From assembly GCF_020520425.1 (NCBI RefSeq), contig NC_079491.1:22931449-22995448 (forward strand): a DNA stretch of 64,000 nucleotides, in the 5' to 3' direction. A program made the position numbers and the translations under genes. The DNA comes from Spinacia oleracea. Its lineage: Eukaryota; Streptophyta; Magnoliopsida; Caryophyllales; Amaranthaceae. Positions 41,907 through 63,828 of this stretch are shown here, one piece after another (within the stretch, counting starts at the first letter, position 1; every line of letters begins with the position of its first letter). Below the pieces are notes generated by a model. The model saw only the letters and a program-made list of their open reading frames with translations, made no database searches and had not been told where the DNA came from.

Positions 41907-42129
41907 TGTTGCTGCTTCAAAAAGGTCTGCTCTGCTTCTGTTTTGAAATTGGTCTGCTCTGATAAAACCCTCCGTATTAGAGAAACCCCGTAGTATAGTG
42001 AATTTATAACATCGTATGAACATCGTACATTCGTACCCGTAAAACTGAAACGATCCGACCCGAATGGTACGATTCAAATCGAACCGTACCAGACTCTTAC
42101 CCAAACTAAAGGGTTCTCTTCACCTTATT

Positions 42130-42245
42130 CGCAATTTTTTGGTTGCCCTCGGGTACAGCCAAGCTGGCTGTACCCCTAACCAAACGACGTCGTGTGATGC
42201 GGGTACAGCCAGCGCTGGCTGTACCCCCGAAAACGACGTCGTTCA
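42130..42245 (+). repeat. Left terminus of the MULE: two palindromic modules
   Basis: Two copies of GGGTACAGCC-n-GGCTGTACCC (42151-42175 and 42201-42226) are separated by CTAACCAAACGACGTCGTG. The second is followed by CGAAAACGACGTCG. Each copy can fold into a short hairpin, so every module is itself symmetric inside the terminal inverted repeat. Confidence 0.8.
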
Positions 42246-42377
42246 GCATCTTTTTCCTAAGTTTCCTAAGTTTTCTAACTTTTTTTTTTTGTTACTTCTT
42301 CTTCAAGTTGCGCAATTTTTGTTCTTAGGGTTTATTTCGATTTTCTCTCTCTCCTATTTTCTCTCTCCTCTGTTTCG

Positions 42378-45300
42378 ATGGAGCTCGCAGTTATGGATAA
42401 TTCTGAAGCTCTTTTTGAATCTAATTCTGGAATTTTAAGTACATTGATGTCAGAATGTAAGTTTACATTTTTATTATTTTTATTTATTTGTTTTGATTTC
42501 AATGTTTTTGGTTTTGATTGTGTTCGATTTTATATTTTGATTTTGGATAAAATGTGTTTAGAATTTTGTTATTTTTCGTGTTTTCGCTGGATATTTCGAT
42601 TTTGATTTGTATCTTTGTTTTGGTTTTCTGCAGAATTTCTTATTTTTTTGCAATTGTACGTTAGTTTTTTGTTCGATTTTTATTCATAATTTTATTTATT
42701 ATCAATGTATATAATGTTAATGAATTTTTAGCTCAGATCTTATGAACATTATATATTTTGATAAAATACATATTATGTTATGAATTTTTGAATTGTTCTG
42801 TCCTAAAAGAAAAAATTGTTCATTGTTTAGTTATGACATTCTTAACAAATTGTGAATATTCAGTTCAAGGAAATTGAATATTGTCTACAATAATAATGAA
42901 CATTTTATTTAATGACTTTGAATGTTACGTATATTAGTAATGAACATTGCATTGAAATGTATTGTGTCTTTTTTATTTAGATAATGAACATTCTATTGTA
43001 TTATATTGAATTTTCTATTAAGATTTATTGATCATTATCTATTTTACAATGAACATTTTATTTAATATTTTTAATAATACCTATGTTCGTAATGAACATT
43101 TTACTTAAGTACATTGAACAACACCTATTTAAACATGGACATTCTATTTTAATATTTTTAACATTATTATTTTAATATTGAACATTTTATTTAAGGATAT
43201 TGAACATTTAAAATTTCAAAATGTTAGTTATTATTGAAATTGATCATTCACAATATTAACATTGAACAATCACTAATTTAACATTGAACATTTCTTCCAT
43301 TCGCAGTGAATAAGGAAGTAAGTCTTTTTGTTGAAGGGTCAGAATCTATGTTAATGATGAAGGAAGCTAAAAATGAAGACGAAGCTTATGATTTGTATAA
43401 TGAATATGCTTTTAGTAAAGGTTTTGGTATTAGGGTTGGGAAAGGTCGGAAACGTCAAAACAGTGAACTTTATACTATGAAACGGTTCTTGTGTAGCTGC
43501 GAAGGGGTTAAAGATGAAAAAAGGAAGAGAACAAGGTCTTATGCTAGATTGGATACGCGTACTGGGTGTACTGCTTTTGTTCAGTTTTCTATCGGTAAGG
43601 ATGGTGTGTGGACGGTTGTGAATCATAATATGATTCATAATCATGCTATGGTTCCTCTAAATAAGAGGCATTTGATAAGATCACAAAGGAAGGTTAGTAA
43701 GGAGACTCTTTACTTTATGTCTACTTTAAAAGCTAGTGGTGTTAAAGTGTCTGATACCTTGAGGGTTTTGAGGAAAGAAGTAGGCGGATCTCCTATGGTT
43801 GGTTTTACAGCTAGTGATGCTTATAATGCTTTATCACGTGCAAAAGCTAATAAACTTGAAGGTCATGACTGTCATCAGTTAATCAAGTATTTTGCTCAGA
43901 GAAATTCCAGTGAAGAAGGTTTTTATTATGACTTTGAGCTTAGTGAAAAAGATGGACTTTTAAGTTTCTTTTGGCGTGATGGTAGGATGAAGAGAGATTA
44001 TGATTATTTTGGGGATTTATTGGTTTTTGATAAATAAATATGATATGATTTGTGCTCCTTTTGTTGGTATGAACCATCATGCTAATAATGTTATGTTTGG
44101 AATGGGTTTTGTTATCAATGAAAAAACAGAATCTTTTAATTGGCTTTTTCAAACTTTCCTTACATCAATGGGTGGAAATCCTCCAATAACCATTATGACA
44201 GACCAAGCTCCATCCATTGCTGCTGGGATAAGGAATGTTTTTCCAGATACTAGACATAGATTATGTACGTGGCATATTGGGGAGAATTCAAAGAAGCATA
44301 TTGGGCAGTATAGAGCTTTAGATGGTTTTTCTGACATATTCAATTATTTTCTGAAGTATTGTGAAACTGCTGCTGAATTTGAATATCATTGGCCAAGGTA
44401 ATTAATTTGTATTACTTATTTACTTCAAATTAATAAATAATGTGTACTTGTAATCTTATGAGTATTTACTTATAAAGAAATGAACATTTTATTATTTCAT
44501 GTTATTACCAAGTTATATGCTTTTTCTGACTCTGAACAAATAGGTATATTCTGATGAACAAATTTGATTTTTATATTGAACATTTTGTTTTTCAGAATGT
44601 TGACTCACTATAAATGCGTTGAAAATCCATGGTTGAAGAATTTATATACAATCAGAGAGATGTGGTGTCTTGCTTATTCTAAGAACTATTGGTCTGGTGG
44701 TGTGTTATCATCACAGCGTTGTGAAACTACCAACAAGTCAGTTTCCCATCGACTTGATAAGACACAAGGCTTATGTGATTTTTATCATGTTTTTTTGGAT
44801 GTTATTTCTGAGTGGAGGAGCAAACAGAATGGTCATGACTACAGAAATTGGAAAGGTAGACCAGAAGTTGCAGCTGCAAATTGCGGAATTCTTCTTCATG
44901 CGAGAAAGATTTACACTATAGAGCATATGTTTTGTTTGAAGAACAATTTCTTAAAGGTATGGCATGTTCTCAAGAAGAAAAACGCGGAAACACGGCTACA
45001 GAGAAAAGTTATTATGTGTGGAGGCCTAAAAAAGACTTGATTAAACATGAAGTTCAGTTTAACCAAGAGACTTTTGCAGTGGATTGTACTTGTCAGTATT
45101 TTACTGAAATGGGTTTTTTATGTTCTCATGCGCTTCGTGTTTATCATGTGCATTGTGTCCCAGAGATTCCCAATCTCTATATATTGAAGAGGTGGACAAA
45201 AGCGGCTATGTGCAGTCATTTGGTTGAAGATGATGGTGAAAAGTCCAATATAGTTGCGGCTTCTGTTTGGAGGGCACAAACCCTTAGGAATTTTGTTAAG

Positions 45301-46618
45301 CTTGTTATGTCTAGTCAAGATTCTCTTCAAGCTAGGGCTGAGGTTGATTCTGCCTTTGGTCTTTTAAAAGAAAAAGTGGAGAGTATTAGGGGTACAATTG
45401 ATTTTTCTGATCCTAAAGAGGGTGAAGATATCTTTGTGCCCTTAGTAAAAAAACCCACAGAATTTAAGGAAAAAAGGTGAGAGGGATGACAGATTGAAGA
45501 GTACAGTTGAGAAAATCTACAATAAAGCTAAAGGGAATTGGAGGAAGAGAAAAGCAATATTTACAGATGCAACAAGGTTTAAGGCTCAATCTGCAGTCAT
45601 GGTAAATATTTATTAATATTGAACATATATGTTTTATAAATTGATCATTTGCACATAACTAATTGAACATTCTTTTTTTTGTTTTTTTTTTTTGCTTGGT
45701 TTTTGCAGGAGTTGGATGAAGTTGGTGCTCCTGTGATTTTCTCTAATTCTCTTAATGACTCATCTGATCTAGTTGTACTAGATCCTTCACTATTTCAGGT
45801 TGTTATCCTTGCAAAGTTTGATCATTTAGTTATAAATATATTAACATTATTATCTGATAAATGATCACTATTAATTTTTCAGGTTGATGCTTCTTTTCCG
45901 AAGCCACCTCCAAAATATTTTAGAAGAGGTGCTGTTGTTGATAAAAATGTAGAATCATCGGACAAGGTAGATAGTAATATTTAATTCTTTAAAATGAATA
46001 TTTAAATTTCTGTTTTTGAATGTCTTTTCATTTTGTGTCAATTTTAGGAAAACAATTCAACAAATGAAACCTCAAATGATTCATATGTTCATGGAAGTAC
46101 TAAAATCGATGCATGTACAAAAGTTAATGCATTATTGGCTACTAAAGCACCATCGGCTACTAAAGCACCATCGGCTACTAAAGCACCATTGGCTACTAAA
46201 GGAACATCAGCTACTAAAGCAAAAAAGGATCAGCAGAGATTTGAGTATGATATCAAGAGTGCATTTGACTTGGGACTTTCACCATCACCAATGGTTACTA
46301 AAGTTTCATCTGTTACTAAAGCTCCATCTGTTACTGAAGGTTAAGTTCAAGGACATGTTCATGCTTCAGAAATTATTCAAGTAGTACCTAAAGTTCAAGG
46401 ATCTATTCAGGCTGAAAAAATTACTCAAGTTGGATCTAAGGTTCAAGGACCTAAAGTTTCATTGGTTACTAAACCTCCGTTGGGTACTAAAGGATCTCAT
46501 CAATCTGCTAATGATAAAGCTTATTTGAAATTTAAGTATGATTCTTTTTTAGCTCTTTTTGATGAATCAATGGCTGCTGAAAAAGCCATTAAAAGTCAAG
46601 GATTTAGTAACTATTGAT
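42378..46618 (+). pseudogene. FAR1-type Mutator transposase gene, decayed
   Basis: Exons: 42378-42456 (MELAVMDNSEALFES), 43307 to about 44034, about 44038-44399, 44595-45601, 45709-45798, 45883-45966 and 46048 on. Domain order: FAR1 zinc finger (FLCSCEG, then RTGC, then HNMIHNH); MULE transposase with the first Asp in LLVFD, a second in IMTDQAPSIAAG and the RCETTNK segment; SWIM finger CTCQYF-x-CSH. The C-terminal tail has five ATKAPS-like repeats and the peptide EYDIKSAFDLGLSPSPMV. Lesions: a stop plus frame change after VFDK (about 44035), a frame change near 44915, one in an A-run near 45472, and an in-frame stop at 46342 beyond which the frame continues to 46618. The transposase would bind the element ends and cut in the nucleus. 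The tail after the SWIM finger is longer than usual for the family. Confidence 0.85.
46132..46230 (+). repeat. 18-bp coding minisatellite in the transposase tail
   Basis: The unit GGCTACTAAAGCACCATC is repeated about five times in frame, giving ATKAPS repeats. Related TKAPS/TKVSS words recur at 46290-46340 and 46450-46500. Confidence 0.75.
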
Positions 46619-47413
46619 TATTGAGTTGAAAATTTGTACGTGCATTTATTTGTACTGAACATTTAGTTTAAATAGAATGATCATTGAGGTCAAACGTTTT
46701 GATCATTTATTTATAATAGAATGAACATTTAGGTAAGGTAGTACGTGCTCTTATTGTGTTTGAACATTTAGTTTTAATAGAATGAATATTGAGGTCAAAC
46801 ATTTTGATCATCACTATTTTTCATAATATTTTATGTTTGAATTTATTTTATGTTTTTTTAAGACATCCTTCTGAAGTTTATGAACATTTTAGTCAAATAT
46901 ATTCAACATTATCTACTTTTGATTTTGAACAATACACATTTGTCAATGTGTTTCTATTTAAAGATTTTGAACAATACGAATTTCAAAGTGAATATTCTAT
47001 ATGAAAATTTTGAGCATTAAGTATTTCTAAAATGAACATTTTATTGAAATACAATGAATATTAGTAATTTTAAAATTGAACATTATATTGAAATACAATG
47101 AATATTAGTAATTTTCATATTGATTATTACTTATTTTCTCAATGAACATTATTTAACGATATTAATCTTTATATATAATTTTCATAAAATCAAGCAGTTA
47201 ATAAATATTTATATTGTATGCATTATTGAGTTGCAAATTTTGTTGTGCATTTGATTCAATACTGCAAAGGAAACTGAATATTAAACATAAAAGAAATGAA
47301 CACTAAGTCATATGTTTTTGAACAAACCACCAAAATACCCAAATATTTACTTTACATTGTACTAAAAATCTATCTTTGTTTGTTAACCTTCTTACTATCT
47401 GCTTAATTTTTCA
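46619..47413. repeat. Space between the convergent MULE genes, TGAACATT-rich
   Basis: About 0.8 kb between the 3' ends of transposase and protease genes. It holds dense TGAACATT, TGATCATT and TGAATATT words on the plus strand and no reading frame. No obvious terminator or polyadenylation signal stands out. Confidence 0.6.
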
Positions 47414-50400
47414 TTAACTCCTCCATGCTTCATTTATGTTTGACTCATGCTTTTCAATTTGCTTTGAAAGCATTAGGAGACCACAGAAAGTGACACGAAG
47501 CTTCCTTATTTGATTTGTCTGTATATCAAAAATTAAAAAAAAATTAAAAATGTTTTATGAAATCCAAATATTAAATTATAAAATTAGGAATATAAAAGAA
47601 ATTCAACAGACAGAACACTAAAACAGAAAAGACAAAAACAATAAAAATAATGAATAAAATACGAAAGAAGAATGAACAAAATTAAATTTACATCATTTGC
47701 CTTCAAGTCACAGATCCATTCATGTCTTGGATCACCAGTATAGGTCTCCATGTGCTTCATGACATACACACCGCAGTTTGTATAGTCCTTCGTGCTTCTC
47801 CATTTCATCTTGAGCAAATTCATTTCATACTTTTGCATTGGTTCTACGTCATAACCAAATGTGCCCATATATTTTGCAAAAGCATCCAACTGGAATTTTG
47901 GTTCAAAATTGTAAGATAATTATCTTTTGACGTTTCAAATATACATTTATGAAGGATTTATTTCTTACCACAACTTCTGGGTGTCCCTCGTATTTATCTT
48001 CAAATTTTACATTTCTTGGTAGAGGCCTGTTGTCAATTACATCCACAGTTGCATTGTAATGGTTGATGACTAGGAGATAGAAGTGTTTTGCAGCAAGAAC
48101 GGGAATGAATATCTGAAAAAGAGGTAATTATTTAAGTTAAAAACAATGAATAATAATATACATTAAAATGAACATTAAAGTTTTAGGAATGGGTTAGAAG
48201 TTATATAGGTTTACCTGTTTAAATTGATGAATGTTTTTGAAATTATAGTTATTCAGTTCATCGTTAATCCTGCTTTGAAAATCATCAAGCCTTTTTTCGT
48301 AGGAGGATCCTGCTGGACATACCTTGTTTGTGCACATAATATGCTGCATTTAAAGATAATATCATTCAATTAAAAAGATATGTAAAATTATTTACAATGA
48401 TAATGAACATTTCAATTTAATCATTCGTACTTTTTATCTTAATTTTGTTGAACATTAATTATTTCAATAATGAATATTCCATTTCAAACTTTTGAACATT
48501 ATGTGTTGTAATTATGAACATTCTATTTAAATATATTAAACATTACTTGTTTTTATATAAACAACATGAACATTTTAAATAACATCAATTATTATACTTA
48601 CATATGGAACTGTTGAAAGAAAGAGTTTATCTTTATGGTCCTTTGCATTTAGATACTTCGACCATGAATCAATCACACAGTCAACCACTTCCACTTCATC
48701 AACCAGTGTTTTCATGTCTTCTCTATTGATGTAGTTATATCCATCAAAATAAAGAAGCTCACTACAAAAAGGAAGTAAATTAGGAGGAAGTATTCGAATT
48801 TAAATTTTAAATTACTTTTACGTGAAATTAAAGAAAATACCTGTTGTCCTGACCACTTAACACATAATCTGCTAGGCTTTGATGCATTGTGTCCAGATTT
48901 TTGAACAAGTCTCGATACTTGACCAAATATGGAGAAGAGAAGGCAGCCGGTAGTTTGTGAATCCTCTGAGGTCTTTTTCCTTTGTCACCTTTCTCATTTC
49001 TGTATATACAAAAAAATTAACAAAAAATCGACTTAATTATAAAAAGAACATATAAGATTAAGAGTATGAACATATAAGATTAAGAGTACGAACCTATAAG
49101 ATAAATAAAGAGAAAGAATATAAAATTCCAGAAGAAGAACCAAGAAGTTAACAGGTTTGAACAAGAAAGAACAAATAATTTTAAAGTATGAACATATAAA
49201 GTAAAAGAATGAACAAAAAGTACAAAAAGAAAGAACATAACATTCCAGAAGAATGATCCAAGAATTTAACAAGTATGAACAAAAACTAGAAGAGTATGAA
49301 CATATTAAACAAGTTTGAACAAAACTTATAAAAAGAATGAATATTAACGAAAAACAAAAAGATTAAAAAGTTAAATCATGACATTTTAAATAACCAAAAC
49401 ATTATTATGTCTTTAAAATAGTTTTCATAATATAACCAAAGTTTCACAAATACAAATTCAGTCTGAATACAGTTAAAATTTACCCTTCTCCTTCATCTTC
49501 TTTTTCCTCTTTGTCTTCAAAAATTTCGTCCAATTTCAAATCTGTTTTTGTGCTTGAAATTAATGTTGATATTGAGACTTCATTCAGTGGAGTTTTTGGT
49601 GAAGGAAGAGAAGATTGTCCTGCACCAACAGATTGTTCAGCTTCCACTGCTATTTTCACCTGTAATTTTGTAGGAGTATGAGGTTCTACTGGCTCCTCAG
49701 CCATTTGTGTTGCAACCTTGTTCTCAAGAACTTGTGGTTCAGCATTTTCATTTGTCTTTTTTGTTGCAGGCTGCTCCTCAACCCATCTGGTGTAACCTTC
49801 TTCTTAATCACTTGTGGTGCAGGATCCTTTTCATTTCTCACTTCTGGTGCAGGCTTCTCTTGAATTATATTAGTTACATGCATCATTTCTGATACATGCA
49901 ACTCGGGCTCCACTGTAGTTGCATCCAAGCTCACAGTCTTCTCTTCTTGTACAACAATGTTCTCCACTGTTGTTTTTTGTTCTTCTGAAGCTGGTTCACT
50001 CACTTGTGATTCTGCTTGGATCATTTTCTTAGCTTTTGCATTTTCATTTTCTTTTTTCTCTTCCTCCCTTCTTTGTTTTAGATTCAGCATAGCAGAAGCC
50101 AAAGATTCATCTATTTCTTCCAGTGACAAACTTGGCGTAGAGGTGGATGTACCAGCTTTTTGACCTTTCAACTTGTCATCATCTACCATCGGTGATGGTG
50201 TAAGTCCCAAGTCGAAAGCTTTCTTGATATTATACTCATATCTCTTGTTATCCTTTTTTGCTTTCTTTTTCTCCAGATCAATTGCATCCAACAACTCTTT
50301 TTCTTTCTCCAATAGAGCCTTAATGAAGTCATCAGACCACTCATCTTGGCTTAATGATGGTTCTTTTGCCATTTTAGACAAGAACTCTTCCACTTTAGAT

Positions 50401-53344
50401 ACCAACTCATTTCCTGTGAAGAATTCTTGCGCCTTCTTCAGTGAATCAGAAAGCTTTGACAAATTGTCACCAACAGCTTGAATTATACCCACAAACTCAT
50501 CCATAAACTCCTGTGTTTTAAAACCCATTGACATACATTAGGGAATAGTAAACTTTTAGGTGTTTCAGTTTGAACATTAATAATTAAAATTATGAACAAC
50601 TATATATACTGAATGACACTTGTTCACATACACAATATATAATTAAAGAGGCTTAAACACTTATTTTTATCATTTATTGATACAGTTTGAATAAATAACC
50701 AAAGAGGTTTGAACATTTTATTACATTCTGTATATAATGTACTAATTCTTCATTATGTTATCATATGGCTTAGAGAGGTATGAACATTATATGCAAAAAT
50801 AAAGAACATTTAAGCAAAGGGTTATGAACATTTATTTATATATGTTCTTAAAGTATTTTTTAACATATTAAAGGAAGGAACATAAAATTAATATTACACA
50901 TATTTATATTTTGCAGAATTATTAACTTTAATCTATTAGAATGTGATGTATTTAGGAATACCTTGCGAGTTTGTTTTTCTTCAATATTGATTTTGGGTAA
51001 CACCTTCCCCAATCCAAAGCCACTTTTCTCCAATTCATTCCGTTTTTTTCCTATTTCCTTTGTATAGCAGGACACAAGTGGAATTCGTCTTGGAGGAAAA
51101 AAGTTCATTCTTTGAACTCTGTCAAAATAGAAAATCTGACATAAAAAGTATAAATGTTAGAAAAACCCTATGATTGATCAAGTAGATTAAAATCATAAAT
51201 TTAGAAGGTGTAAATGATGTTATACCGTCAACAACGGCAATGGTCCTGTGAAAAATGTTGCTATGTCATTTAGTTTCAGGTTTTTTTTATACTGTGCAGT
51301 AGTTGAGAGCAGTGCCTCCCACACATACTTGCACCAGTTCAAGCTCTGGATCTGCTCATGATCCATCATTGAGAACAAAAATTTGAAGTATGCTTGGTTT
51401 GACAATGTGCTTTTGATCAATGTGTTGACAGTCACCACCAAGAAGCTTGTAATGAAATTTGCATCCGGTCCAACCTCAATTTGGTCTTCTCGACTGTAGT
51501 ACTTCAAAATTTTCTGAACTGATGGGACCTTATTCCCAAGAGGATTCCACTTTGAATCTATAAAGATCTTTTTCCAACTGTTTTTTTAATGAACAAAATC
51601 TAATTAAGATAAACATTCCCAAATAGAAAGGACAAACAATATAAAAAGAAAGAACAAACGCAACAAGAACTATGAACAATAATGAACAATTATATGAATC
51701 AGGGTTATAAAAAAAGAACAACCATATACAAATGAACAAAATTTAATTAAGAAAAACAAAATTTCATTAAATATGAACAAAATTTAATTAGGATTTCACT
51801 TTTCATGTATTAATGTCTTCTTCAATCTGTTTTTTGAACATATGGCTGAAAACTTTGAACATAAAGGAAACAAACTTTGAACATATTGGAGAAAAGCTTT
51901 GAACATATTGGAGAAGCTTTAAACATAATAGGGAATTGTTTTGAACATAATTGATAAAAACTTTGAACATAAGGAGGAAAAACTATGAATAATTGTATGA
52001 GATAAACGCAGAAAAAACTTTTTCTCATTATAATTGTATGAGATAAACTTTCAAATTCTGAATGTATATTAAGCCATACACAATTGAACAAATAACTTTA
52101 AGTAAAAGAACATTTATAGTACATGCATAATGCAGTTAGATTTTTGAACTCTATAACATATTAAAAATAAAAGTATAGACTTAAGATCATTTACCTTGCC
52201 ATGAATGCAGAAAATTCTTCACTAGCCTTGTCAGACTTTGCCTCAACTATCTCTACTTCACCGCTAGGAAGGCCATATATCTTTTTCACGTCCTCAAATT
52301 CTATCAGAATTTTCTCATTCCTTGGCAGATAAAGATTTTGGCTGTTTTCCTCAAAGTTGTTACACAGCCATGTAACAAATTGTTGGGATGAAGTAGGTAG
52401 CTGGAAATCTAGCAATGCTCCTAGACCAATATTTCGAACGACCTCCTTCTTCTGTTCATTCATCATGGAAATGAATGTGATGAATTTTCCGTGTCCTCCT
52501 CCAACACCGGTTTTTTCTTCCTCTTCTTCTTCTACTCTCTCCTTGTAAACAGCGATTGATTTCATTGGTTTCTTTCTTGCAGGAACTTCTTTGGTAATCA
52601 TCGCCAAAGGGGAAGCCTCCCGTTCCACAACTAAATCTGATTAACAAAGCCAAAAATTAATGCAGGAATAATAAGAATAAAAATAAATTACATAGATTCA
52701 TTCAAGTATTTTTATTTTTACCTTTTTCTGATTTGTGAATATCATCATTTTCATTCTCTTCCTTCCCTTCCCAATCCTCATCCGCTATTTTCCTCTTTCG
52801 TTTCTTTTCAGCAGGTAGGTTTGCTTTTGGTGTTGTTCTTTTTGATGCTGGAAAAGGAACACATATAAGTGAGTTTTAATAACAATCCTAGAATATTTTA
52901 TCTTATGGAAAACAAATAAATTTTAATCTTACCTATTTCTTGTCTTTGTTTTTCGAACATAAGCAACCTATCCTTCACCGGTACTGTTTGCTCTGTTAGA
53001 GAAGAACATAGAATTAAGAAGTTTTGATAAATATGTAATACAATGTTTAACATTTTATTATACTAAATATATATATACCTTTTTTCATCTTTTTTTGTTG
53101 TTTCACTTCTTCTTCTTTCCATTCTTCGTCTTCCTCATCTTCCTCATCTTCCTTATCTTCTTCCTCTTCTTCCTCATCAACTTCCTCTTCTTCCTCTTCT
53201 TCTTGAACCTCTTCTTCTTGTTCCTTTCTTTTCTTCAAAGTTTCTTTCATTTTCCTTTTCCCTTTAGCTATGACTTCTGCAAGTCCTGTCAATAGAACAA
53301 AATTGAAAAATTGTTTGAACATATGACCAAAAAACTTTGAATAA

Positions 53345-53825
53345 TTGTAAATTTTAACATATGTCCAAAAACTTTGAACATATGATAAAAAACTTCAAAC
53401 ATAATATAAAAAACTTTTGATCATGATGGAGAAAAACTTTGAACATATAACCAAAAACTTTGAATAACTGTATGAGATAAAAACAGAGAGAATTTTTATC
53501 CAAACAAAAATAACATTTTATGATAAATAAATGAACATTCCATGAAAAAAAATTGAACAATGTTAAATTTTATTAAGTTCAAAGTTATTTTATCATATGT
53601 TCAAAGTTTTTTGAACATATGATAAAAAACTTGGAACATAATTCAGAAAACTTGAACTTAATATAGAAATATTTTGAACATGATGGAAAAAAACTTTGAA
53701 CATATAACCAAAAACTTTGAATAACTGAGATAAAAACAGAAAGAATTTTTATGCAAACAAAAATAACATTTTTGATAACCAAATTAACATTCCATGAAAA
53801 AACTTTGAACAATGTTAAATGTAAA
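53345..53825. repeat. Intronic direct duplication in the protease gene
   Basis: Two tandem copies of about 225 bp (53345-53570 and 53590-53825). They share CTTTGAACATATAACCAAAA, ACTTTGAATAACTG, AGATAAAAACAGA, TTTTTAT-CAAACAAAAATAA and ACATTCCATGAAAAAA. Diverged a few percent with indels. Confidence 0.7.
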
Positions 53826-54231
53826 ACCTGTTTTCTGTTCATCTTTCAATTCTTCAGTATCCTTTTTCTTGTTTCTTTTTGTTGCAGTCCTAAGAGGAAG
53901 AATTCTTCCTTTAACAGATGCTTTTTTCTCAACTCCTGTAAAAAAGATAATAATGTATTTAATATATTAACATTTTATCAAATAACTTATATTATTGCTT
54001 AACATTTTTTTTGTATGTATATTTATCTTTTTGCTTTTTTGTTTTTGTGATCTCAACATCCAAAGGCTCATCCTCAACTTCTTTCTCAGCCACTTTCCTT
54101 TTCTTTGGAGTATTTGTTACTTTGGAAGTAACTTCGGAAACATCTACATTAATAACAAATACTAAGTACAACTTACATAATAATATATTTGATCATTTAT
54201 TGAAATAAGATTGAACAATGTAAATATTTAC

Positions 54232-55100
54232 CTTTTCCATCAAATTCTTCCCTGGTAACTATTTCAGCACAAACATTTTCTTGCACTTTCACCATTGATC
54301 TTGTACTTCTTCTCGGATTGTATGAATCTGATATGTTGTGCAACTTCTTTTGTAGTGCTTCATCAATATATATACTTTGAATGACTTTCTTCTTGTTAGC
54401 AGTTGTCTTCCTTCCTTTTCTTGTTCCATTACCACCATTGGTTGGATCTGCACTCTCTGAAGCATTTACATTTTCAACCACCTTGGCAATTGCTTTTGTG
54501 GCATCATCATCTTCTTTTTTCTTTCTCTCAGCTTCTCTTTCCTTTCTCTCAGCTTCTTTCCTTTCCGCTTCCTCTATCAACGCTTTGTTGTTTTTAGCAA
54601 TAAGCTGACTCATTTTATCTTCATATTCTTTCTTTCTTTCCTCAATATCCTTCTTCTTTGCTTCAGCTTTATCTTCTTCTTCCTTTTTCTTATTAGCCTC
54701 CATCCTCTTGTTTTCAGCTTCTTTCTTCCCAGCTTCTCTTTCGGCATCAGCTGCAGATGCCTTTTCCTCAGCCAATCTTCGGGCTTCTGCGTCAGCTGCA
54801 GATGCCTTTTCCTCAGCCACTATTTGGCTTCTGCATCAGCTGCAGATGTCTTCTCCTCAGCCAGTCTTTTGGCTTCTTTCTCAGCTGGAGATGCCTTTTC
54901 CTCGGCGACTCTTTTGGCTTCTGCATCAGCAGCAGGTGCCATTTTCTCAGCTCCTATTTGTGCAGATACAGCAGGTGTAGTTATCCTTTCCTCAGCTTCT
55001 TTGCTGGCTTTTGCAGCAGCTGCAGCTACCATTGCTGCAGCCTTTTTTTTGTTGTTCTTCTTTATGCTCTTTGCTAAAAGTTGTTTCACTAACATATTGC
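54232..55100 (-). repeat. Coiled-coil repeat region coding AEEKASAADAEAK units
   Basis: Part of the protease gene. About five to six repeats of a 14-residue unit (AEEKASAADAEAKR and variants with P or T) are followed by uninterrupted charged helix (KKKEEEDKAEAKKKDIEERK and on), then a Lys/Arg-rich segment. The composition is that of a long rigid helix, superficially like TolA-type linkers. One frame change lies near 54822. Confidence 0.8.
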
Positions 55101-55798
55101 CCCTGATATGATAAACAAAGTACAAAAAAATTCTATAAATTAAACCAAAAAAAGTGTGATCATATATATGAAAACGTATGAACAATATCATTTAAATATA
55201 AACTTACAAATAAACAAGAAAGAAAGAGTTGTTCAATAATAAAGAATAACCCATAAAAAATAAAGAACAAACAATTCCAAATGAATGAACAAACAATGAA
55301 ACAATTATGAACAAATATGCAGAAAAAAATGAATTGTTAAAAAAAAGTAAAATTGTACCTATTTTTTGTAGCAATCTTTTTTTTGTACCATAGATTTTGA
55401 AGGATCTTCTTGATCTACTTCACTGTTTTTTGAATAAGATATTGTTAATATACATGCTATTTTATATAAAATTAAGAACGATTCAACTAAATTGAAAATT
55501 CATATTATTTTTTACCTTGATGTTTTTTGAACTTCAGACTGGGATTTTGATGAAGATTTCTCAGTAACTTCAAGCTGGGATTTTGATGAAGATTTGTCTT
55601 CTTCTTCTCTGTAATTTGAATAGTAAGGTGTAAACGTACAAATCATTTTATATAAAATTAATAAAAAAAATCATTCAAAAAGCTAAAAATAGACATTATA
55701 TTATACCTCAATGATTTTTGAACTTCTGTCTCAGAAGTTGTAGATGCCTTCCCATCTCCTTCACTGTATTTTTTATTAATATGATGTTAATGGACACA

Positions 55799-57626
55799 TC
55801 TAATATATATATATATATAAAGGGGAGTTTTTTAAAGAGCATTTAGAGCGTCCACATAGGATTGTACAGTCATCACGTATAAATATTATAAAAATAGATT
55901 ATAATAATGTTATAAAAGATAGATTACCTAAGATTAAATATCTTAGGAGTTATACATTAGATTAAATAAGTAAAAGATAGATTATAACTTCACCAAATTT
56001 ATCTTTATAATAATGTTTATTCATAATTTTTAGATTACGTAAGTGATAGGTGAAGATTATTGTACTCTGATCTTTTACAAAAGTTATACGTCTAATTTTA
56101 TCTTAGGACTTTTCCAGTAGACGTCAAACTCTATTTCTACGTGTGTAAATTTTACGTTTACATTAGAATTCTACTTGCATTAAACTATATTTTTTCCGGT
56201 TATAAATATATGACTTTATATGTTCAACCCATATCTAACTATCAACATAATAGTTTACAAAAAAAAAAAACTCAAGTTTGTGTGATCATGGTTGCGTAAA
56301 TTTATAAAACTATACTCCTCTTTTATTATATTTGATTTTCTTTTTACGGGTTTATACCCTATAGTTATTATGATGATTTAAGTACTCTGTATGTTTATTT
56401 TTCATAAATATTTCATTGATTCGAGCAATTAATTCAAGCAAAAACGATTGGAAAATAAATGTACGTGTTTCAAGAATTATTGATGTGCTAAACTTCCGTA
56501 AACAAAATAGTGTCATTAGTCTGGACATGGTCATTGACGAAGAGGTATATAATTGATCTTATATAATTGTGGCTTCATAATTTTTTCCTTCTTTTTAACT
56601 TTTAATAATAATTTTACAATTGCAGGGTGATTATGTACATGCTTCAATCAAAGGAAAATATGTGCAATAATTTCGTCAAATATTGGCGGAAGGCAACGTC
56701 TACACAATAAGATATTTATTTATTTTGTGGCTTCAGTTATTTTTTTTTTTAATTTACCCTAAGTCAACTTGGTGAAAAGGATAAGTAACCAAATTTATAA
56801 TCAAATAGACGGTTGTTGGTGACAAAATTAGGGGGTAAGAATTAAATTGGATGAGACGATATTATTTTTTCTTTTGGACATAGGAGAGTTCCATTTATTA
56901 TTACATTAATAGTTCATTTAACATTAAAGGAAACTGAAACCAAAATAAAAGAGGTTAATGGGGAAAATAAAATACAATATACGAAAATGAAACAATTTCT
57001 AAGGATTGACTAAATAGAATATGGGGTGAAAAAATAAGGATAGAGGGAGTCTATACTTATACAATTTATATGTAATGATTTTGTTTAGATTACATGAATA
57101 ACCAACTACTAATTCAAGTGGCTACGTTTATTGATCGCTAGCAGTCCGGAATGATTAGTAAATTGTTTTAAAAGAAAACCCCTATAAGAATTCAGTTTAA
57201 ATGTTAGTTGAGTATATGAATGGTCAAGGTTAAATATATTAAAATGACAATACATATTGGAGATGGTTACTATGACTACAATTTTAATGTAGCTATTGTA
57301 AAATAATCCTAAAAACAATTTAACAATAAGAACTGAATAAAATATATTGATTAAAGATAGAAATTTGGTGTAAAACTAAACAAAATGAAATTAGTTTTAA
57401 ATTAAGAGATATCCATAGTAACTTAAATAATTAAAAACAGATATGTGCATCACACGTCTATCTTTGTACGATGATATTATCCCAGTTTCAGGTGATCCTG
57501 GGATCGATTCTCATCCCCGCCCTTTGTGGCTCATTCGCACCAAAAAAAAATATACTTTTCATTACAAGCCCGTGCGCTATGTACTTTTCATTACAAATCC
57601 GTGCATCGCACGGGCTTCCATACTAG
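55799..57626 (+). mobile_element. Helitron nested in the MULE
   Basis: The element starts TCTAATATATATATATAT just after A (55798) and ends TTCCATACTAG before T (57627): the 5' TC, 3' CTRR, A/T insertion rule. A 3' hairpin CCGTGC-ATC-GCACGG lies at 57599-57613, about nine bases before CTAG. A paralogous intron at 55438-55510 of the same host gene reads GTTAATATACATGCTATTTT where this one reads GTTAATGGACACA, Helitron, TTATATTATAT; it therefore represents the unoccupied state. It is 1828 bp and non-coding. It contains a SINE 3' half (57478-57550) and a short duplication of TTTTCATTACAA plus CCGTGC near its end. Confidence 0.78.
57478..57550 (+). mobile_element. 5'-truncated SINE copy inside the Helitron
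   Basis: GATCCTGGGATCGATTCTCA, CCCGCCCTTTGTGGC, TCATTCGCACC and A(9) match the 3' half of the SINE at 3971-4079. The tRNA-like A box is missing. Confidence 0.75.
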
Positions 57627-58875
57627 TTATATTATATAATATTAAAAATTATTCAAATTTAAAACAAAATTGATATTATCTTATACCTTAATACTTTCTG
57701 AACCTCTGGCTGGGATTTAGTTGGTCTTCGCTTAAATTTGAGTATTAACCTTTGTGGTTGTTCTCTAGATTTTATAAATGTATAACTAATGAGTGTCCAG
57801 AGCAAAATACAGTTTGAAGAAATGAATATTTTATGAAAACAAAATGATCATTTAACATAAAAACAGTTATCATGAGTTTTAATATTAAAAAGGACTGAAG
57901 AAATGAACAAAAGTTCAAACATTGAAATTATGAATATAGCAGTTGAAATAATTGAACATTTTATAAACCAAACTTAGTATATCAGAGTAAATGAACATTT
58001 TATAAAAAGGAATTGAACATTTTACCAAAATGAATTGAATATTTTACCAAAATGAGTGTAGTTTTAAAATTTTACGATAGAAAAATTGAATATTAGTACA
58101 AAGAACATTTCCATTATGAATATAATTCTAGAAATAATTCATAGTATATTCAAAAACAAAACTCAGTAACAAAATATATTCCAGAAAAAAATTGAACATT
58201 TTTGAAAAAAGAAAATGAATATTTTATAAAAATATATTGAACATTTTATAAAAAGAAAAATGAATATTTTATCAAAGTATTTTGAACATTTTGCAAACAG
58301 ACAGTTATCAAGAGTTCTGGACTTATTTTTTTGGACATAGGAATGAACAAATGATCGAATCATTTTAATTATATATATAACATTCGAAATAATTCAGTAT
58401 TCCTAGAGAAAACTCAGTAGACCAAAAAGGATATCCAGTTTGGAATATATGAACATTTTTCAAAAAGATTTTGAATATTCTGCTATAATCAATTGAACAT
58501 TTTGCCTAAGATAGTTATCATGAGTTCTCGAGTTAATTTATTTTACAGAGGAATGAACAAAACTCAGTAGACCAAAATGAATATTTAGCTTAAACAATAT
58601 GAACATTTACACATAAGTTGAACATCTAACATAAGGATAGAAAAACTCAACAAAAGTTCATCACATTTACATTATTATAATAATATTTGAAATAATTGAC
58701 ATTCCCTATCCAAATTTTAATCATCAATAAGATTATTCTTAAATCTCTATGAATATTAACGGCACATTCGTAATTTAAATAGAAATTGATATTCAATAAC
58801 ATAAAAATTTACTTACTGGACTTTGTCTATTTGTTTTTTAGTTTCAATTTCATTCTCAATTTGGTATTGTCCAGT

Positions 58876-59200
58876 TCTGTGACCAAAAAACCAATAGTTA
58901 GGGTTTGGTAAAATCACTTCGCAACGAAAATGAATATTAACATAAAATTGATTGATCATTAACATAAAATTGATTGAACATATGTAAATTAAAATGAATT
59001 TTATCTACGAAAAATTAAAATAACATACTCCGTCATGTCTGTGACCAAAAAACCAATAGTTAGGGTTTGGTAAAACAATTCGCAACGAAAATGAACATTA
59101 CATAAAATTGATTGAACATTAACATAAAATTGATTGAACATATGTAAATTAAAATCAATTTTATCTACGAAAACTTAAAATAACTTACTCTGTCATATCT
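58876..59200. repeat. Tandem duplication of an exon-intron block in the protease gene
   Basis: Two adjacent copies of about 160 bp (about 58876-59038 and 59039-59200). Each begins with GTGACCAAAAAACCAATAGT and TAGGGTTTGGTAAAA, continues AAAATGAACATTA and ATTGATTGAACATATGTAAA, and ends TTTATCTACGAAAA then TAAAATAAC. They are near-identical, so the duplication is young relative to the element. Confidence 0.75.
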
Positions 59201-59939
59201 GATTGCTTTTCACTGCCGATTTTTGGCTATTCACTAGATCTTCCAGTACTATAGCAAAAAAATCAGAAGTTAGGGTTTGTTAACATCATAAACCAAAAAA
59301 ATTGACCATTATAATGAAATTATTTGATCATTATAATGAAAAATACTGAAAATAACTAAATTAAACAGATATTTAACTATTTAAACAGTTGCATGTACGC
59401 AATCTGAAATTAAATTACATACGTTTCTTTTTCTTTCTTTCGGCATCTTCGTTTTTCTGAAATAGAACGAAAATAAACAAAATTAGATTTCATATTTAGT
59501 TCGAAAATAAAATCGAAATATCAGAATCATTTCTAATTACTTACTTTTTGCTTTTCGTTGGATTTTGTAGCTTGTTCATGTCAATTTCATCTCGAACATC
59601 CATTTTTCTCCTTTTCTTTCACCAAAAAGAAGGCACAAATTTCTTCTCTTGATATTTTCTGCAAATTCAGCTTAAATAATGAAGATTAGTAGCGGTTTGA
59701 AGAGAGAGAAAGTAAATTGAGGTGGTTGCAGGAAGTTTAATGGCGGTTTTAGGAGAGAGAAAGCAATCAACGTAGATGAGTGGGCGGAGGAGAGAGAAAA
59801 TTTTTTGCGTGCTGAGAATTTGAACGGTTTTCGAAATGATTTTTTTTTTTTTTTTTGTATTTATAGGCCATTCCTGCGCGAAATTATTACCCTCACGTGC
59901 CATTTTTTTTTTCAAAATTAACTACCCGCGCGTGGGATT

Positions 59940-60073
59940 CACGCGCCTAACAATGGTAGGGGGTACAGCCAACTTGGCTGTACCTGGGTAGTTTATGAAA
60001 AAAGACGCTGCGCGTCGTTTTGGGCAGCGGGTACAGCCAAGATGGCTGTACATGGGTATAGCAATTAGGGGTA
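59940..60073 (-). repeat. Right terminus of the MULE: two palindromic modules
   Basis: GGGTACAGCC-n-GGCTGTACC at 59961-59984 and GGGTACAGCC-n-GGCTGTACA at 60029-60053, separated by a stretch including GACGCTGCGCGTCGTTTTGG. The order mirrors the left end. It sits about 340 bp upstream of the protease start codon, so it also contains that gene's promoter region. Confidence 0.8.
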
Positions 60074-60101
60074 TCACCTTATTTCTTTCGAAAATTTGGT
60101 A

Positions 60102-60372
60102 CTCCCTCGTGTATTTATTTAAGAGATACAGAAAAATTGATTAAAATAAAATAATAAAACAAGTGGGGTTGGATAGATATTCATTTTGGGGGTGGGAGGT
60201 GGGATGAGTTTATGAAATTATTTGTTTAATATAATGGTGAGTCATATGGTAAATTAGATGTATTATTTAATTAGATGGTGAGGTTGATAAGTTAATAAAT
60301 ATGGCAAGTGTATCTCTTAAATAAATACAGCCGGAAAAGGCAAGTGTATCCCTCAAATAAATACGGAGGGAG
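60102..60372. mobile_element. Stowaway-like MITE
   Basis: The left end CTCCCTCGTGTATTTATTTA then AGAGATACA is the inverse of the right end GTATCCCTCAAATAAATACG then GAGGGAG. TA flanks both sides (60100-60101 and 60373-60374). The right terminal block is doubled (CAAGTGTATCTCTTAAATAA, then CAAGTGTATCCCTCAAATAA). Confidence 0.75.
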
Positions 60373-60373
60373 T

Positions 60374-62357
60374 AATATTAATCCGTCCTTTTGGCCGATT
60401 ACCTTTTATTAAGTCCACCTACGACATATTTTTTAATAATCTCATATTCTCATATATACTATACAACGACTTTTATTGGGCCCAACAGGTCATAAACTTG
60501 TTGTAAGCGGTGATATATCCACAGTACTCTCTCTTTTCTCCTAATCATCATATCATCAATTCACGCAAATTTTTGGCTATACCCGGGTACAGCCAAAGCT
60601 AGCTGTACCCCCATCCAAATCGATGTCGTTTTGTCTTGTTTAAAATGAACATTAATATACTGGTACAAAAATGAACATTTACTATTTCGGAAATGAACAT
60701 TTATTTATTTATTTGGAATGATCATTTACTATTTTGGAAATGAACATTTATTTATTTATTTGGAAACAAACTACAAAAATGAACATTTACTATTTCGGAA
60801 ATGAACATTTATTTATTTATTTGGAATGAACATTTACTATTTTGGAAATGATCATTTATTTATTTATTTATTTGAAAATAAACAATATAGGCGCTTGTAA
60901 AAACATAAAAAGACCAATGAAGTGAACAATTTCATTATGAACATTAACCATATATTTATTGTGAACAAACAAATAAACAAGAAAGAACAAATAATTCAAC
61001 AAAAAAGAACAAACAATATAAAAAAGAACATAAAATTCCAGAAAAAAGAACAAACAATACAAAAATTATGAACAATTTTATGATGAATTTTAAAGCCAAC
61101 ATGAAAGAACAAACAATACAACAAGAAAGATCAAATACTGGTACAAAAATGAACATTCACTATTTCGGAAATGAACATTTATTTATTTATTTGGAATGAA
61201 CATTTATTGGAAATGAACATTTATTTATTTATTTGGAAATAAACTACAAAAATGAACATTTACTATTTCGGAAATGACCATTTATTTATTTATTTGGAAT
61301 GAACATTTACTATTTTGGAAATGAACATTTATTTATTTATTTGGAAATAAACAATATAGGCGCTTGTAAAAACATAAAAGACCAATGAAGTGAACAATTT
61401 CATTATGAACATTAACCATATATTTATTGCGAACAAACAAATAAACAAAAAAGAACAAATAATTCAACAAAAAAGAACAAACAATATAAAAAATAACATA
61501 AAATTCCAGAAAAAAGAACAAACAATACAACAATTATGAACAATTTTATGATGAATTTTAAAGCCAACATGAAAGAACAAACAATACAACAAGAAAGAAC
61601 AAACAATAAAGCAGATAATTATTATGAAGAAACAAATAAACAAGAAAGAACAAATAATTCAACAAAATAGAACAAACAATATAAAAAAGAATATAAAATT
61701 CCAGAAAAAAGAACAAACAATACAACAATTATGAACAATTTTATGATGAATTTTAAAGCCAACATGAAAGAACAAACAATACAACAATAAGTTTGATGAA
61801 TGAATTTTAAAAACAACAAGAAAAAACAAACAGTATAACAAGAAAAAACAAACAATATAAAAAGAAAGAATAAAAGATTAATGAAGAGTTTAATTATGAA
61901 CATTAACCATATGATTATTATAAACAAACAAATAAACAAGAAAGAACAAACAATATAAAAAAGAACATAAAATTCCAGAAGAAAGAACAAAAAATACAAC
62001 AATTATGAAAATTTGATGATGAATTTTAAAAACAACAAGAAAGAACAAACAATACAACAAGAAAGAACAAACAGTACAATAAGAATGAACAAACAGTACA
62101 ATAAAAAGAACAAACAGTCGACAAGAATGAACAAACAATATGAGCGCGTCGTTTTTGGGGGGTACAACCATAGCTGGCTGTACCCGGGTACAGCAGTTAG
62201 CGATTGGTGATTCATCACCATCTCGTTGACTTTTTCGCTGAGTAACGGTCACTTAAGCCCACTAAAAATCATTGGGTAATAAAGATGAGATTATTAAAAA
62301 ATATGCCGTCAGTTGGATTAATAAAAGAAAATCGGCCAGAGGTCAGATTAATATTGC
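60374..62357. mobile_element. 2-kb non-autonomous element related to the MULE
   Basis: The outer arms are long inverted repeats. Left AATATTAATCCG, TTGGCCGATTACCTTTTATT and CATATTTTTTAATAATCTCA match, inverted, right AATATTAATCTG, GGCCGATTTTCTTTTATTAA and CATATTTTTTAATAATCTCA. Inside, at about 60583-60610 and 62160-62198, are MULE-type palindromes (CCCGGGTACAGCCAAAGCTA, GCTGGCTGTACCCGGGTACA) with ATGTCGTT and GCGCGTCGTTTTT words. Between them are only AATGAACATTTACTATTTCG and AGAACAAACAATA arrays. Either one long-TIR derivative or a small MULE relative nested in another element. No target duplication was identified. Confidence 0.6.
60645..62130 (+). repeat. Tandem higher-order array of GAACAT words
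   Basis: A unit of about 485 bp is present twice (about 60658-61138 and 61139-61618). A shorter third block (61622-61800) and a fourth (61880-62060) follow. Within a unit, a first half iterates GGAAATGAACATTTATTTAT and a second half iterates AAAGAACAAACAATA. No coding. Confidence 0.75.
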
Positions 62358-63687: not shown

Positions 63688-63828
63688 GTAGATGTAGCGA
63701 GCCAACGATAGATGTAGCGAGCCAACGAGGGATCTTGCGAGTCAACGAGAGATCTTGCGAGCCAACGAGGGATCTTGCGAGCCAACGAGGGATCTTGCGA
63801 GCCAACGAGGGATCTTGCGAGGCTATGC
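63688..63828. repeat. 20-bp minisatellite
   Basis: The unit GCCAACGAGGGATCTTGCGA is repeated about seven times with few changes, just upstream (on the minus strand) of the hairpin repeats. Confidence 0.85.

Follow-up and report, generated by a model that had tools for sequence, protein, structure and literature searches.

A spinach ULP-bearing Mutator-like element with phased, strand-polar TGAACAT arrays, possible targets of a VANC-type anti-silencing system

Introduction

The VANDAL transposons of Arabidopsis have made known that a transposon protein can remove DNA methylation in a sequence-guided way, and phased spacing of the target motif reportedly matters for such VANC proteins. The sites of VANC21 are described as dense, same-orientation motifs within tandem repeats of non-coding sequence, introns included (sections of PMC5735166), while VANC genes that carry a ULP protease region, named KIU, are said to act likewise, and the Vandals that carry them are said to respond to motifs of other such Vandals by recognising them (both in excerpts of PMC13317346). 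Here we describe a Mutator-like element (MULE) with a transposase gene and a ULP/C48 protease gene in a stretch of 64,000 nucleotides from Spinacia oleracea (contig NC_079491.1, positions 22,931,449 to 22,995,448, hereafter the window), whose interior is lined with arrays of the heptamer TGAACAT that may be the targets of a comparable system.

Results

Phased TGAACAT arrays in a single orientation

The element, the borders of which are treated further below, and the clusters of TGAACAT within it are as follows, clusters being counted as separate where the gap exceeds 300 bp:

42130..60074, plus strand: whole element, CGCAATTTTTTGG...AATTAGGGGTAT, a MULE without terminal inverted repeats (non-TIR MULE); 17,945 bp with a nested Helitron, about 16.1 kb without it
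42743..43291, plus strand: cluster of 9, upstream of the FAR1 exon segment
44481-44583 and 45620-45670, plus strand: clusters of 2 and 2, between mapped exons of the plus-strand gene
46656..47149, plus strand: cluster of 7, between the convergent genes
48169..49303, plus strand: clusters of 6 and 3, between mapped protease-gene exons
50571..50831, plus strand: cluster of 4, between mapped protease-gene exons
51835..51970, plus strand: cluster of 6, between mapped protease-gene exons
53316..53703, plus strand: cluster of 7, between mapped protease-gene exons
57953..59141, plus strand: clusters of 10 and 4, in the 5' part of the protease gene (intron or leader)

The element holds 60 TGAACAT on the plus strand, grouped in these 11 clusters, and 4 on the minus strand; first-order Markov simulation yields 3 on average and at most 9 over 300 runs. 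None of the 60 falls in a mapped exon and none in the nested Helitron, and the broader TGAWYAT has 4 of its 103 occurrences in exons, on an exon map that is partial and totals 5,825 bp. The strand bias is found on the transposase side (20 plus, 2 minus) and on the protease side (40 plus, 2 minus) of an element whose two genes converge; with the same orientation on both sides, the motif is therefore oriented by the element rather than by transcription, and because orientation is independent of the genes, a splicing signal is disfavoured.

The arrays are also phased. Pairs of TGAWYAW stand 22 bp apart in 52 cases and 44 bp apart in 25, and in the element Tandem Repeats Finder (TRF) reports tandem arrays with periods of 21-23 bp or multiples thereof. 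The eight spacers between 22-bp TGAACAT pairs of the window copy are 45% alike, where 35% is expected from composition, and a short relative of the element has the 7-mer and phase unchanged around a different spacer. The regular 22-bp spacing suggests how a protein may read the motif.

The pattern recurs throughout the family. Each of 13 full or long copies, among which we count the 10.5-kb copy c11, carries 30-56 of the 22-bp pairs on the plus strand and 0-1 on the minus strand, and in these copies the outermost 591-736 bp on the left and 737-939 bp on the right lie outside the TGAACAT range. Across the 16 sequences examined, the plus strand has 6-56 pairs at 22 bp and 0-2 at 27 bp, and the minus strand has 0-1 at 22 bp. 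In the genome as a whole (894,210,420 bases, 242 contigs), TGAACAT-N15-TGAACAT occurs 4,249 times, partly in short relatives, versus 133 for the reversed pattern; at 27-bp spacing, with 20 bases between the motifs, the counts are 103 and 31.

Borders and target-site duplication

The borders were defined from the flanking duplications and from other copies, which we searched for with the first 201 and the last 200 bases of the element:

42121..42129: 9-bp target-site duplication on the left, CACCTTATT
60075..60083: 9-bp target-site duplication on the right, CACCTTATT

An initial annotation of the locus had proposed an identical 10-bp duplication, and the letters match as it stated, TCACCTTATT being present at both 42120-42129 and 60074-60083. 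Among the 34 paired copies 32 have an intact right end, and in every one of these GGG(A/G)TA is followed by T, so position 60074 is part of the element; the duplication is therefore the 9-bp CACCTTATT, the tenth match is coincidental, and a 10-bp duplication is ruled out. The proposed length of 17.9 kb agrees with the 17,945 bp found, a figure that includes 1,828 bp of nested Helitron.

Of the genomic matches, 40 of 523 candidates were scored for the left end and 40 of 81 for the right end, and ends were paired when they lay on the same strand 3.3-38 kb apart. Thirty-four of the 40 scored left ends have a right-end partner elsewhere in the 894-Mb genome, and the 31-base left terminus has 35 exact genomic occurrences (reversed control: 0), so that the sharing of borders with other copies, on which the initial annotation had staked its proposal, was indeed found. 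Duplication statistics rest on the 29 copies that fit both terminal patterns, five of the 34 having been excluded with one end off-pattern. An exact 9-bp duplication flanks 21 of the 29, versus none of 812 cross-pairings, even when one mismatch is allowed; the remaining eight comprise one 9-bp duplication with one mismatch, two exact 10-bp ones, two of 10 bp with one mismatch, and three copies without a clean fit. The exact duplications of 9 bp (21 of 29) and 10 bp (two more) lie in the 8-11 bp range of MULEs. A contiguous match to the joined flanks, which would mark an empty site, was absent from the best 40 of 1,455 candidates in the element's own genome. The element is a well-bounded, recently mobile, non-TIR MULE with borders common to tens of copies; with shared ends and both genes found, its annotation as a Ulp1/C48-bearing MULE of definable extent stands.

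The ends had also been called inverted, which applies to the subterminal sequence only. With the right end taken at 60073, an inverted comparison of the outermost 30 bp scores 7, within the range of 200 shuffles (up to 10), so true terminal inverted repeats are absent, while the outermost 120 bp score 26 versus a shuffled maximum of 14. This similarity starts about 22 bases in and is based on GTACAGCC...GGCTGTAC palindromes:

42153..42173: subterminal palindrome GTACAGCCAAGCTGGCTGTAC, from element base 24; a looser one lies at 42203-42224
59963..60051: pair of subterminal palindromes GTACAGCC...GGCTGTAC, whose starts lie 112 and 44 bp inside the right end

Between 126 and 146 bp from the right end, CACGCGC occurs in 15 of 15 family copies and GCGCGTG in 14 of 15; in the window copy they stand at 59940-59946 and 59928-59934, respectively. 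We take CACGCGC to be the binding word of FHY3/FAR1, domesticated kin of the element's transposase.

The transposase gene

Both genes were located inside the element, convergent as initially annotated, with the transposase on the plus strand:

42378..42455, plus strand: probable first exon (MELAVMDNSEALFES...), matched in 15 of 16 sequences scanned, the short relative being the exception
43306..44031, plus strand: exon with FAR1 domain (Pfam E-value 1e-19)
44033..44398, plus strand: exon part with MULE domain PF10551 (E 9e-24)
44597..44923, plus strand: first part of a further exon, followed by a frame break before the SWIM part in the window copy
44935..45477, plus strand: exon with SWIM zinc finger (E 1e-4)
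46156..46599, plus strand: downstream repeat-rich coding segment, with one stop in the window copy and open in c32

The reading frame is interrupted between the FAR1 and MULE parts in the window copy, whereas in copies c32 and c33 it runs through both. In c32, FAR1 and MULE are matched at E 6.5e-19 and 1.3e-23, and SWIM scores 19.2 bits, just below the cut-off of 19.6 (22.1 bits in the window copy). With matches allowed up to E 10, the domain search of the transposase found FAR1 and no MuDR domain; the combination of FAR1, MULE and SWIM without MuDR therefore points to a transposase of the Hop/Jittery type. The N-terminal FAR1 and C-terminal SWIM domains agree with that type, as judged by domains and without a transposase tree.

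The protease gene

The protease gene, on the minus strand, has the following mapped segments:

54823..55080, minus strand: Lys/Glu-rich segment U1, with a frame break to the next segment
54215..54778, minus strand: Lys/Glu-rich segment U2
52194..52541, minus strand: globular exon U3, which together with U4 has a weak DUF1985 match in c32
51223..51582, minus strand: globular exon U4, which makes up the latter half of the region resembling DUF1985
49483..50525, minus strand: acidic linker segment(s) U6/U6b, with an internal frame break and a dN/dS near 1
47692..48989, minus strand: C48/Ulp1 domain in five exons (48843-48989, 48602-48760, 48212-48322, 47966-48109, 47692-47898)

The C48 domain scores 21.4 bits in c32, above the Pfam cut-off of 20.7, and 20.1 bits, just under it, in the window copy. 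C48/Ulp1 peptidases have Gln six residues before the catalytic Cys. In the eight copies printed, the His, Asp and Cys of the triad are all present, and the position six residues before the Cys is Thr or Met, not Gln. U3 and U4 of c32 match DUF1985 over positions 26-140 of 141 (E 0.0019, 18.6 bits, cut-off 35.1), and a sub-threshold match to DUF287 (E 0.0099) was also obtained in c32. Against solved structures the C48 part found only weak SENP7 matches (E 0.47 and 0.57), and U3 plus U4 found nothing meaningful. Among the 149 DUF1985 matches listed in the genome (150 scored of 893 candidates), none was seen by eye to fall at a known family copy. Of the best 150 scored relatives of U3, 44 have at least 67% identity and the other 106 have 23-45%; none of the latter coincides by eye with the genomic DUF1985 matches listed.

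Gene integrity and selection

Both genes had been annotated as broken, and the window copy does carry two frame breaks in each, besides the one stop in the plus-strand segment. In copies c32 and c33, 17 tested segments are free of stops and adjoining segments follow without a frame change. Ratios of nonsynonymous to synonymous substitution (dN/dS) were computed between two groups of copies, A (window, c7, c8, c5) and B (c32, c33, c21, c24), by comparing the window, c5, c1 and c6 each with c32; as point estimates from few changes, they are 0.17-0.19 for the transposase, 0.18-0.26 for U3 plus U4, 0.20-0.25 for C48, 0.68-0.72 for the Lys/Glu-rich part and 0.91-1.13 for the linker. Between the window copy and c5 the corresponding values are 0.54, 0.96, 1.30, 0.68 and 0.82, and between c1 and c19, a divergent and partly broken copy, 0.35, 0.23, 0.45, 0.63 and 0.72. 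The pattern fits selection on both genes along the lineage of transposing copies, relaxed after insertion. The initial annotation had suggested that the window copy may have been mobilised by enzymes of another copy; the constraint between it and c5 is weaker than that between the subfamilies, which decay after insertion would fit too.

Copies, age and nested insertions

Full copies of about 16.4 kb fall into the two groups. Over aligned bases, the window copy is 98.8% identical to c7 and 97.8% to c5, values with which the initial description of the insertion as not ancient is in keeping; c32 and c33 are 99.7% alike, and the window copy, c5 or c7 are 93-94% identical to c32 or c21. Two short copies close to group B, c9 (4.2 kb) and c17 (3.3 kb), have lost internal sequence by deletion. 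The insertion nested in the window copy is absent from c7, c5 and c8:

55799..57626, plus strand: nested Helitron, 1,828 bp, with TC start, hairpin and CTAG end, between A and T

Copies of 26-28 kb were considered as longer autonomous forms, a view rejected for the six fetched (c1, c6, c8, c19, c24, c27), all of which contain long terminal repeat (LTR) retrotransposon inserts at differing sites. Those of c1, c6, c8, c19 and c27 belong to one family, and the unrelated insert of c24 has reading frames that look copia-type by eye, without a domain search. The inserted retrotransposons are about 10.4 kb long, with LTR pairs 96.8-100% alike in the five measured (c19 was not), and all six sit in the 6.3 kb at the start of the element; preferential insertion there is possible, the sample being small. 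Within 45 kb at C5:115071373-115116020, the family has four right ends and one left end among those scored, which suggests a tandem group of copies.

Short relatives and neighbouring sequence

A short element with related ends lies next to the large one:

60564..62207, plus strand: neighbouring short relative, related ends, right border provisional, 17 TGAACAT on the plus strand and 0 on the minus strand

It is 1.6 kb long, has no stop-to-stop frame over 126 aa and contains an internal 468-bp tandem duplication; at the right ends tried, no flanking duplication of 8-11 bp (up to 2 mismatches) was found. Its left end occurs at 335 genomic places with at most one mismatch (control: 0), and at least 100 of the short-type left ends are exact, versus 35 exact ends of the large element. 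The six zero-mismatch short-type ends listed in C1:1-27 Mb all have same-strand 22-bp TGAACAT pairs just inside. At C1:6543569-6562519 a family copy has a short-type array about 2.5 kb off, as in the window, which may reflect a shared insertion preference or chance.

Elsewhere in the window, a Stowaway-like miniature element (60102-60372, CTCCCTC...GAGGGAG, TA at its sides) begins 18 bp beyond the right duplication, and about six copies of the 20-bp unit GCGAGCCAACGAGAGATCTT occupy 63697-63821.

Discussion

We lean, with limited confidence, towards the view that the element works like a VANC-type anti-silencing system. The product of the protease gene would be a VANC-type anti-silencing factor that attaches to one face of the DNA at the helically phased TGAACAT arrays and strips DNA methylation from the element, making expression of the transposase possible, and the short relatives, which retain the arrays, would profit. 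The window copy would have inserted within roughly the last million years, judging by 1.2% divergence and an assumed rate, and would afterwards have gained the Helitron and lost both reading frames. More tentatively, and as a possibility that we place short of probable, a VANC-type motif-guided module may have come to reside on a FAR1 (Hop/Jittery-type) MULE apart from VANDAL, either by exchange between branches or by arising repeatedly, and may support a larger crowd of short elements that would have the ends and the 22-bp-phased arrays but not the genes. If this is true, anti-silencing would be a portable module and not a peculiarity of VANDAL; the motif offers a testable target from sequence alone, and the genome has copies with all tested exon segments open.

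Several observations weigh against the anti-silencing reading. Constraint on single motif sites was tested across copies and no sign of it was found. At motif positions defined by the independent copy c11, the window copy and c32 differ at 7.4% (19/256), compared with 7.8% (639/8,170) at other non-coding positions. Defining the positions by c5 or c21 gives 4.7% or 4.9%, both references being kin of the compared pair, and between the window copy and c11 motif positions differ at 4.8% (c5 as reference) or 6.3% (c21), compared with 5.6%. Seven of 12 permuted 7-mers did as well as the motif or better. VANDAL motif arrays are reported, in sections of PMC10398659, to contract and expand as tandem repeats; under such turnover constraint on sites need not appear, and the null result is still no help to a functional reading. 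On the protein side, the DUF1985 match stays below the Pfam cut-off and is confined to c32, the window sequence giving no hit, and the structure model of exon U3 is unusable (predicted local distance difference test score 37). The replaced Gln makes peptidase activity of the C48 domain doubtful, even with His, Asp and Cys kept, and the few changes behind the dN/dS values should be borne in mind. VANDAL transposases, moreover, are characterised by SWIM and CCHC, PMD and/or DUF features, and the FAR1 domain of this element is unlisted among them in the relevant part of PMC6446971.

The strongest of the other explanations, which we nevertheless think unlikely, is that the arrays are neutral AT-rich minisatellites spread through introns by slippage or unequal exchange, and that the C48 gene acts otherwise, for example by deSUMOylating host chromatin or transposase proteins. 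The tandem periodicity reported by TRF and the motif sites without extra constraint are what such minisatellites would give, and the C48 dN/dS of 0.20-0.25 between subfamilies suits a gene with another role. Neutral spread accounts less readily for eleven clusters along both genes in one orientation (60 versus 4), for the lack of the motif in mapped exons and the nested Helitron, for spacers that are 45% alike where 35% is expected while 7-mer and phase hold, and for a short relative that keeps both with another spacer.

It is improbable, in our judgement, that TGAACAT is the binding site of the FAR1-type transposase itself. En/Spm elements, with subterminal repeats bound by the TnpA protein, offer a precedent, Pfam calls FAR1 a DNA-binding domain, and the short relatives retain the arrays. 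Against this, TGAACAT is missing from the outermost several hundred bases (591-736 bp on the left, 737-939 bp on the right) and runs through the interior, and the ends hold other candidates in the GTACAGCC palindromes, CACGCGC (15/15) and GCGCGTG (14/15). Least probable is that this is an ordinary ULP-carrying MULE whose protease gene is a captured host fragment without function in the element: portions of PMC2528002 and PMC13317346 treat captured ULP regions of MULEs as transduplications and the gene is broken in the window copy, but the dN/dS of its globular and C48 parts (0.18-0.26) is near that of the transposase (0.17-0.19), and all tested segments are open in c32 and c33.

Comparison with described systems

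The VANC-type reading rests on likeness in organisation. VANDAL/VANC elements (VANDAL21/Hiun, VANDAL6) likewise have degenerate terminal inverted repeats and an extra gene beside the transposase, a dense same-orientation motif in tandem repeats of introns and non-coding parts (according to sections of PMC5735166 and PMC10398659) and, in the portion of PMC6446971 on VANDAL, a 9-bp duplication. They differ in their motifs, the element having TGAACAT and not YAGTATTAY or AGTTGT[CA]C, and the DUF1985 that VANC proteins contain is just weakly recognisable in the element. KI/Kaonashi of Arabidopsis, the MULE with KIU genes to which the initial annotation had likened the element, also lacks terminal inverted repeats and has its ULP domain oriented against the transposase, and is described with mudrA in the pertinent part of PMC2528002, unlike the FAR1-type transposase seen here by domains. 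The likeness thus does not extend to the transposase, in which FAR1, MULE and SWIM without MuDR indicate the Hop/Jittery type instead. We do not assign the element to VANDAL or to KI, the mudrA feature of KI being absent by domains.

Closer in the transposase are the Jittery-like MULEs of melon (van Leeuwen 2007) and grapevine, in which a ULP region lies beside a Jittery-type transposase (passages of PMC2528002), so the combination of ULP and Jittery type is not new; compared by description, these differ in that the same passages make no mention of phased motif arrays. The Hop and Jittery groups (35 and 36 in a 2019 survey of MULEs) share with the element a C-terminal SWIM, an N-terminal FAR1 in Jittery of dicots and monocots and in half of the plant Hop subgroup, and, in some Jittery, the lack of terminal inverted repeats. 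They differ in that one reading frame is listed for their plant subgroups, where the element has two genes, and in that the Jittery duplication is 8 bp or not indicated, where that of the element is 9 bp (all from parts of PMC6446971).

In open-licence papers we found no description of phased target arrays on a Hop/Jittery-type MULE. Sasaki and co-workers (EMBO J, 2022) reportedly treat how domains were gained and lost in eudicots, together with helical periodicity, and may already cover such elements. Set beside these systems, the element is ordinary as a ULP-bearing MULE and notable for its phased, strand-polar, target-like arrays.

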